From Eubacterium sp. (GTDB lineage Bacteria; Bacillota; Clostridia; Acetivibrionales; DSM-1351), in the NCBI GenBank assembly GCA_029266335.1, contig JAQSXC010000024.1:1-61489 (forward strand): a DNA stretch of 61,489 bases. The letters are read 5' to 3'. Of this stretch, positions 34,342-35,733 are shown piece by piece; the stretch's first letter is position 1; each line of letters opens with the position of its first letter. The position numbers and the translations under genes were made by a program. The notes under the pieces are model-generated. The model made no database searches. It was given only the letters and a program-made list of their open reading frames with translations, and was not told the DNA's origin.

Positions 34342-34485
34342 GTTGTGCAGTGTCCATATGGAAGCAGCATAAAATCAGGTAAATATGATTGAAGCCGGGA
34401 AAAAAAATTGATTTTATGGAGTGGAATAATAATTTACCGTAAATCGACACCCTTAAACATCCGGTATTCTGCTTTCCCCAACCAT

Positions 34486-34553
34486 AAAAACAAGGTATCT
34501 TATATGATCCTCCGGCAAGCTGCCGGAGGATAAAATCTTAATAAGATACCTTG
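34486..34553 (-). terminator. Nested-hairpin intrinsic terminator of the candidate RNA
   Basis: Outer perfect arms CAAGGTATCTTAT (34491-34503) and ATAAGATACCTTG (34541-34553) enclose an inner 11-base GC-rich hairpin (34507-34517 with 34521-34531). On the minus strand TTTTT follows at 34490-34486. Confidence 0.85.
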
Positions 34554-34733
34554 GTATTATAACGCACAGGTTAAAAAGAACGTTCACGTTCTTTGAAAAT
34601 TTTCCGGCTATAGAAAAATTTTCTTACCTAAAGCGCATTTCAACAAGGAAAAGGTGCCCTAAGGGACACCATGGATATGTTCACCACCTGGCAACCAGGT
34701 GAACCCGCCACCTGTAAAGGGTGTAAACATCTT
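34486..34733 (-). ncRNA. Candidate structured non-coding RNA, about 248 nt
   Basis: The region has no credible ORF but dense base-pairing. A sigma-A-like promoter sits immediately upstream (34740-34768) and a terminator closes the unit. Helices on the minus strand: CACC/GGTG near 34709-34723; a stem of GTTC plus ACCTGG with its complement at about 34680-34704; GGTGTCCC/GGGCACC; and a two-part helix 34561-34571 with 34626-34639 (AACGCAC and AGGT against GCGCATT and ACCT, with G-U pairs) that encloses two hairpins, 34575-34594 and 34595-34623. I do not recognise it as 6S, SRP, tmRNA, RNase P or a common riboswitch. The raiA motif is worth testing but I cannot confirm it. Confidence 0.65.
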
Positions 34734-34739
34734 CGCCTC

Positions 34740-34768
34740 GTTATAATTATAATACGAAACTATTCCAA
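34740..34768 (-). promoter_or_regulatory. Promoter of the candidate RNA
   Basis: Minus strand TTGGAA (34768-34763), a 17-base spacer and TATAAC (34745-34740), giving a start near 34733. It overlaps the end of the upstream lipoprotein gene in its tail frame. Confidence 0.6.
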
Positions 34769-35565
34769 TATTTCAGCATCAGTTTCTACATCAGCATTAG
34801 TTTTCTGATCTTTAGCAGGATCTTCTTTTGTCTGATTGTTCAGGTCCTTCTGAATATTATCTTTTGTATTGTCCTTATCTGTGTTATCTTTATTTGTGTC
34901 ATCCTTATTCGTGTCATTCTTGTTCGTGTATTCTTTGAAGCATTATCTTCATCAAGCTTAATAACATCCTGTTCTCCCGACTGTACCGAGTTAAGATATG
35001 CTGATCTCGGGAATGCCATGTCTAGCTGATAGCTGCCTTTGAATTCCTTTTTGACCTTACCGTCAACCTTGAATTGAACTGATTTTATATCCTTAAGTTC
35101 AGTTAATGTATTAACTATGGAATATAATGTAAGCTGTTCATTTTTCTTTCCGCCCTGATGTTTTTCTACAAATTCCTTGGTAAGATCAACTGTAGCCACG
35201 CCCTCTTTGATTTTAACATCGGAATGAACTTTAGTCTCCTTTGGGATTGCAGCCTGGAATAAGCTGCCTTTTGCAGGACCGCTTATAAGCTCCTTAACAA
35301 GTACTGTTGCAAGATACTCATTACCCTTTTCTACATCTGTATTGCTTATATATCTTGTTTCGGGTGAAAGTTTACCCTGTTCATTTATAAAATAAAGCTT
35401 AAAGGGAGTTTTATCCTTTATTTCACTGGCTTGATTTTCACCCAGCGAAACACTGCTTGCAGGGGTTAATTCATCAATACTTCCGCTATCACCAGCTGAC
35501 CCGCAACCAGAAAAAATAGTCATTGTAATTAAACACACTAAAATAAAACTTATTATTTTTCGCAT
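34760..35565 (-). pseudogene. GerMN-type lipoprotein gene with a probable frameshift
   Basis: A lipoprotein (lipobox IFSGC) with a GerMN domain near residues 60-170: PFKLYFINEQGKL, KELISGPAKGSLFQAAIPKETKVHSDVKIKEGVATVDLTKEFV. Such domains occur in germination and sporulation proteins (GerM) and LpqB-like lipoproteins. The start ATG at 35565 follows GAGGTG. The unbroken frame ends at 34840 in an odd Arg/Ile/Thr-rich tail, while one extra A in the run at 34934-34936 would give an acidic repeat tail (KEYTNKNDTNKDDTNKDNTD...) ending in TAG at 34760. A one-base deletion, real or from sequencing, is the simplest explanation. Confidence 0.7.
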
Positions 35566-35733
35566 CTCTTGACACCTCACATTAAAATGTTAAAAGCAGA
35601 TAATATGAATATTCATCCTTACACAACTATTTCTATGCCCAAGCATTATTAAGTATTCTAACTTGTCAGTTTTTTTTATTACTTTTTGGTAACAACAAAA
35701 ACGGAAATTATCAGCAGCAAAATTTTTACCTTC

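Follow-up and report, generated by a model that had tools for sequence, protein, structure and literature searches.

The minus strand at positions 34486-34768 of the analysed window, a 61,489-nucleotide stretch of DNA from a Eubacterium sp. genome, raises the question of whether it holds an RNA gene of its own. The first-pass annotation had read it as an independently transcribed structured RNA, and the letters behind that reading are present on the minus strand: a promoter-like TTGGAA (34768-34763) placed 17 nt from TATAAC (34745-34740), several hairpins together with a helix joining 34561-34571 to 34626-34639, and a GC-rich long hairpin followed by a T-run ending near 34486. A credible ORF was also lacking, with only short mechanical ORFs in the region (e.g. 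44 aa at 34453-34587, minus). The predicted fold of 34486-34745 (minus) reached -100.2 kcal/mol, against -62.1 (sd 4.9) for shuffled sequences (z -7.9; 0/200 shuffles as low). Folded alone, the element described below (34556-34753, minus) gave a z of -4.5, again with 0/200 shuffles as low, and its opposite strand gave -4.0.

Composition of the claimed RNA unit

No Rfam family matched the window at the gathering threshold, and with E values up to 10 the claimed region returned eight chance-level matches, the best with an E of 0.51. The structured unit thus had no match to a known RNA class, nor had the loci of eight other copies of the element, where the sole match was an adjoining THF riboswitch (RF01831, above the gathering score) at L035:1-121, about 2.4 kb upstream of the repeat copy. 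The raiA motif RNA (RF03072) of clostridia is about 200 nt long and, like the unit, compact and structured; RF03072, for which the first-pass annotation had proposed a search, had no match in the window's genome. Among 21 genomes searched, the sole raiA RNA was found in the Ruminiclostridium cellobioparum genome G009 (L001), on a different contig from the empty site of that genome described below. Searches of phage and plasmid collections yielded no match to the element.

The claim that the unit has a promoter and terminator of its own did not hold. The TTGGAA/TATAAC pair was absent from the list of a promoter scan, and the region contained two promoter-like sites compared with 2.1 in shuffles, which is the chance level. 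The -35-like TTGGAA (34763-34768) is formed by the two final codons of the gene upstream (TTG GAA, then the stop TAG), at a place equivalent to the end of the ortholog, and the -10-like TATAAC is the left end of a repeat. A terminator scan listed a single terminator-like site, the inner hairpin at 34670-34653, which lies inside this repeat. The long hairpin and T-run at 34555-34486 were not listed by the scan and were assigned as a terminator from their fold, the T-run and their presence in relatives. The claimed unit is two things, a repeat (34746-34557) and the adjoining terminator of a host gene.

The host gene encodes a GerMN (Germane) sporulation/germination lipoprotein on the minus strand (34760-35580; PF10646, E 7.3e-28 for 34843-35562). 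Its called ORF spans 34840-35580, and its likely original stop codon, based on the ORF list and an ortholog alignment, is the TAG at 34762-34760. Within 34760-34930 (minus), the called ORF ends at 34840, out of frame with this TAG, and the acidic repeat-like tail of the protein seemingly lies in another frame, which may reflect a frameshift or an assembly error. The neighbours of the window copy are convergent, with the GerMN gene on the minus strand and a zinc-ribbon gene on the plus strand.

The orthologous site was repeat-free in two Ruminiclostridium cellobioparum genomes (G001 and G009; loci L052 and L053). Their GerMN ortholog was 82% identical at the DNA level, and the terminator stretch (34486-34555, minus, outside the repeat) was found there about 20 nt past the stop codon with 76% identity (57/75). 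Since the same terminator occurs at sites that have no repeat, it belongs to the GerMN gene. Elsewhere, these two genomes carried 15 and 14 matches to R1, a covariance model of the right domain of the repeat built from 72 copies, and none of these was on the empty-site contigs. About 20 nt between the stop codon and the terminator differed between the filled and empty sites, so the junction is approximate. A second filled/empty pair was found on contigs of one metagenome bin (L059/L066): the empty site has one TATAG and the filled site has one at each end, with a T/AG change adjoining the junction in the empty site. No clean empty site was obtained for L042 in G009 or for L051 in G001.

Anatomy, spread and fold of the repeat family

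The window copy of the repeat is 190 nt long (34557-34746, minus; TTATAACGAGGC...GTGCGTTATAA), as delimited by alignment with other copies. R1 matched it at 34557-34644 with 66.1 bits, the only significant copy within the window. Its left end, TTATAA (34741-34746, minus), is also the source of the -10-like TATAAC (34745-34740), and TATAACG is kept in the 67 copies with both ends recognised, as is the right end, TTATAA (34557-34562, minus). The left domain (34642-34742, minus) is closed by a helix of AACGAGG (34742-34736) with CCTTGTT (34648-34642) and has hairpins inside, according to the fold and an alignment of 35 copies, in which 94.3% of the cells of the closing helix were paired. It includes an optional module, the hairpin GGTGTCCCTTAGGGCACC (34653-34670, minus), which is the terminator-like site of the scan and is present in some copies only. 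The right domain (34557-34644, minus), delimited from an alignment of 72 copies, has a G+C content of 0.33 and comprises basal helices, among them the two-part helix of the first-pass annotation, and an A+T-rich hairpin (34624-34595). A further optional hairpin within it, AAGAACGTGAACGTTCTT (34574-34594, minus), occurs in a few copies (alignment rows L002, L026, L034, L129 and L033).

Rather than being a single-locus RNA, the unit belongs to a dispersed family. Aligned copies share the ends TTATAACGAGGC (left) and GCGTTATAA (right) and have unrelated flanks. A DNA search with a 260-base stretch gave 14 matches in the window's own genome, including the query itself and a palindromic terminator match, and matched 23 of 60 genomes, own included, with a few of the short matches outside the repeat. 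A pattern for the right hairpin (the core) found 62 sites in the own genome, and the reversed pattern found 0. The 73 stretches fetched from this genome held 75 R1 matches, corresponding to 64 distinct sites after removal of eight both-strand hits at near-palindromic sites and three overlaps between stretches. Genome-wide, R1 scored 86 candidates and gave at least 85 matches, which include both-strand hits. Across the order, 28 of 58 genomes, own included, had R1 matches under strict filters, with 34 in G007 (a complete genome of the same genus), 33 in G041 and 29 in G053 (three both-strand), and 0 in the same-genus genomes G003, G005, G006 and G010. Across the class, 15 of 291 genomes matched at 1e-5 when 17 candidates were scored per genome. 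In genome contigs, 28 bases of the window copy used as an exact pattern had 0 matches, and a consensus pattern of the repeat was found in 16 stretches.

Two sets of loci contained what may be the same copy in different genomes. L016, L017 and L018 carry one copy in three genera, with right flanks 99.5-99.75% identical and left flanks about 93% identical, and from these identities the shared stretch looks like a recent transfer. In L112, L114 and L170, from two R. cellobioparum genomes and the window's genome, a copy is followed by the flank ATAGGGATTGGC, which forms a near-perfect long hairpin in L112 and L114; judged by sequence, this copy is possibly conserved in place.

The fold is conserved among the copies. 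In an alignment of 72 right domains (A1; from 76 copies with a recognisable GTTGAAAC), 91.0% of the cells were paired and a compensatory change was seen in 15 of 22 pairs, where shuffles gave 7.0 and slid controls no more than 12. In an alignment of 35 full-length copies (A3; from 43 of the 140-200 nt class), 86.6% of the cells were paired over 50 named pairs, of which 27 showed a compensatory change (shuffles 14.9; slid controls up to 19). Both counts exceeded all 500 shuffles and every slid control, the named structure having been read off the alignment, which favours it over its slid versions. On its own, RNAalifold proposed only six pairs for A1. Closed by AACGAGGC/GCCTCGTT, the left domain forms a three-way junction in which several inner helices are weak (54-82% paired). 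The copies, mostly about 70-220 nt in length, differ by optional hairpin modules. A strand test comparing G.U with A.C favoured the sense strand in the G-C pairs of A1 (47 to 15); in A3 the G-C pairs gave 71 to 48, and the A-U pairs leaned the other way (14 to 33). The structure and the lack of an Rfam match claimed by the first-pass annotation therefore stood, and the covariation it had proposed to look for in relatives was found, as compensatory changes among copies; what fell away were the promoter and terminator of its own and the single locus.

Ends, arrays and orientation of the copies

Of 117 core matches, the 67 in which both ends could be recognised were used to analyse the ends of the family, with orthologous pairs left in. 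All 67 keep the terminal inverted repeats TTATAACG/CGTTATAA, which are short (about 8-9 bp), and have constant ends between unrelated flanks, the left outer bases being more variable than the right. No target duplication longer than 2 bp stood out in these copies, and a TA duplication would be indistinguishable from the constant ends, so the usual insertion signature is either missing or hidden in the invariant TA.

Candidate mobility enzymes did not follow the family. The IS630-type transposase PF13358 was absent from all 10 genomes searched, and Y1_Tnp (PF01797) was present in 13 of 15 without tracking copy number: G041 lacks any PF01797 match despite its 33 copies, and G002 combines 13 PF01797 hits with one copy. 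A longer, Y1-bearing version was sought among 16 Y1 loci and rejected, as just one of them, L309 (G014), contains a copy, which is complete and separate, about 0.7 kb past the Y1 domain. By paired ends, no transposase-bearing longer version was recognised in the fetched loci; the one candidate, L098, with ends spaced 1069 bp apart, was discarded, since the ORF enclosed there resembles an ABC-transporter ATPase by sequence and no transposase-like ORF was recognised.

In G007, three arrays of copies run head to tail and share one TTATAA or TTATAG, and a fourth shares TTTTAA. The loci L261, L264, L265 and L277 of this genome are such tandem head-to-tail arrays, with a spacing of about 150-165 bp and one shared end sequence at the joins. 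L007 and L055 also contain head-to-tail neighbours joined through a shared end, the second unit being truncated in L007 and without a right end in L055; L019 and L157 contain direct neighbours without a shared end. A head-to-tail junction pattern gave 14 hits, with a recognisable right hairpin just before it in seven, and a head-to-head pattern gave 0. An inverted junction pattern gave three hits; one is the right end of the window copy next to a flank that matched by chance, and the others, read by sequence, appear to be single ends beside chance flanks. Applied across the order with two mismatches, the junction pattern was too noisy for counting arrays.

The copies are strongly oriented with respect to replication. 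In G007, the replication strands were set from dnaA, identified by eye at base 1, and from the GC skew, which changes sign between samples taken at 2.16 and 2.40 Mb. Of the 34 copies in this genome, 33 run along the leading strand; for the sampled ORFs the figure is 131 of 164 (p 0.005; 0.015 after merging close clusters by hand; Fisher 0.012). In G041, 11 of 13 examined copies (of 33) have this orientation. The exceptions are the copy at 1270595 in G007 and L288 in G041, both antisense to the genes beside them, and L294, which is flanked by convergent genes.

The gene context was determined for 91 copies, obtained from 108 candidates by removing reverse-strand duplicates of the near-palindromic core (leaving 97) and then near-identical copies; doubtful long candidates such as L063, L209 and L123 were kept among the 91, and two of the 91 (L022) are G007 copies that also count in the G007 tally. 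ORFs for the context and orientation counts came from a simple script and not a gene caller. The flanking genes were (+,+) for 45 copies, (-,-) for 12, (-,+) for 19 and (+,-) for three, with one side unknown for 12, and the corresponding classes in G007 numbered 21, 1, 9 and 3. With this crude ORF call, 18 of the 91 copies overlapped an ORF of at least 80 aa, and 45 of 68 same-direction ORFs started within 100 nt of the copy, these starts being equally crude. Leading-strand orientation alone would yield much of the sense bias, because genes share the leading-strand bias. That divergent sites outnumber convergent ones (19 to 3, p 0.0009; G007 alone 9 to 3, p 0.15) calls for another cause. Downstream genes, taken from 122 copies with a same-strand ORF at most 350 nt away, comprised 82 proteins with 164 Pfam families, none of which occurred in more than two proteins; the idea of a regulon was rejected on this mixed content.

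Known systems and readings of the element

Elements derived from IS200/IS605 and the REP/RAYT repeats have hairpins, an orientation that follows replication and no target duplication. The repeat resembles them in all three respects, but it has short terminal inverted repeats and no Y1 transposase that tracks it, as seen from the 33 copies in G041 without PF01797. ERIC and Correia elements, compared here by description, live in other hosts and, so far as is known, have ends that differ from those of the repeat. As described in PMC10969869, they are short folded intergenic elements of very variable copy number that exert effects through mRNA processing, and Correia elements map predominantly just upstream of genes, as do many copies of the repeat. 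The pneumococcal BOX, RUP and SPRITE repeats, according to PMC3049150, are likewise small, interspersed and modular (BOX A-B-C, with variable B) and have folded transcripts; they insert into one another and are co-transcribed with 5' or 3' gene regions. That description has them over-represented between convergent genes, where the repeat, unlike them, is rare (3/91; 3/34 in G007). The features given for MITEs in PMC3049150 are terminal inverted repeats, strong base pairing, target site duplication and A+T-richness. The repeat has terminal inverted repeats, a highly base-paired structure and dispersed copies with empty sites in relatives; no transposase-bearing element with the same ends was found in the fetched loci, and the IS630 type was absent from 10/10 genomes. 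The strong orientation bias is unusual for a plain MITE.

We therefore consider it very probable that 34746-34557 (minus) belongs to a family of small interspersed repeats, structured, MITE-like and non-autonomous, that occurs in Ruminiclostridium and the order around it, and that this copy inserted between the GerMN stop codon and terminator. Copies of the family are dispersed, their ends and folding are conserved, and an orthologous site is empty. By Rfam release 15 and a literature search, which found no description of it mostly at the level of titles and abstract openings, the family is apparently undescribed. Its unit is modular and mostly about 70-220 nt long, bounded by TTATAACG...CGTTATAA, and its sense strand can fold into two domains, the three-way junction (AACGAGGC/GCCTCGTT) and the A+T-rich right hairpin. 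Copies would have spread to mostly intergenic sites, probably by means of an enzyme acting in trans. With its insertion between the stop codon of the GerMN-domain gene and that gene's terminator, the window copy would most likely be co-transcribed and form a folded 3' UTR in the GerMN mRNA. By analogy with ERIC and Correia elements, such a 3' UTR could alter the processing or stability of the transcript 3' end.

An independently transcribed sRNA gene, the original reading, would account for the strong folding, the promoter-like pair with its 17-nt spacing, the terminator and the lack of an Rfam match, but the -35 falls within the coding sequence upstream, the -10 belongs to a conserved repeat end, the terminator occurs without the repeat in two relatives and the own genome has 64 distinct sites in the fetched stretches. 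A promoter and terminator kept with the element were not found, and we regard this reading as highly improbable. The same-sense orientation ((+,+) 45 vs (-,-) 12, and divergent 19 vs convergent 3, of 91), the fold with its compensatory changes and the 45/68 same-direction ORFs with (crude) starts at most 100 nt away could instead point to a multicopy cis-regulatory RNA, riboswitch-like or an attenuator, acting in 5' leaders. Such a role is improbable for the family: the downstream genes are functionally mixed, which makes a dedicated riboswitch unlikely, close relatives are patchy for the repeat, its build is modular with variable length and the window copy lies in a 3' region between convergent genes.

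One mechanism for the same family, and not a rival to the interspersed-repeat reading, is a replication-coupled single-strand element modelled on IS200/IS605- or REP/RAYT-like logic, in which the folded strand is the substrate and the left flank WTATAA is a retained target repeated by the right end. The leading-strand orientation (33/34 copies vs 131/164 ORFs in G007; 11/13 examined in G041), the single TTATAA or TTATAG shared by head-to-tail neighbours (three G007 arrays, L007 and L055) and the greater variation of the left outer bases argue for it. Against it, no Y1 transposase tracks the family, the leading-strand bias is partly common to genes, G041 has two exceptions among 13, the G.U versus A.C test favours the sense strand in A1 and not in A3, and the neighbours in L019 and L157 share no end. 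On balance this mechanism is tentative and somewhat unlikely; single-strand mobility coupled to replication would explain much of the orientation, the bias towards sites upstream of genes and the shared-end arrays. More speculatively, and with less likelihood, the repeat may represent a new transposase-less structured class whose members travel either as circles or, at the replication fork, as folded single strands. TTATAA would then double as the target and the right end, which would produce the leading-strand orientation and the head-to-tail arrays with shared ends, and copies would come to lie mostly upstream of genes and in sense with them, where the fold may act in the mRNA.

The apparent orphan RNA gene is thus explained away and replaced by a high-copy repeat family that has no match in Rfam release 15. 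Screens for structured RNAs in Ruminiclostridium and its order will meet this family repeatedly, and its compensatory changes, together with its leading-strand bias, make the movement of such small repeats a directly testable question.
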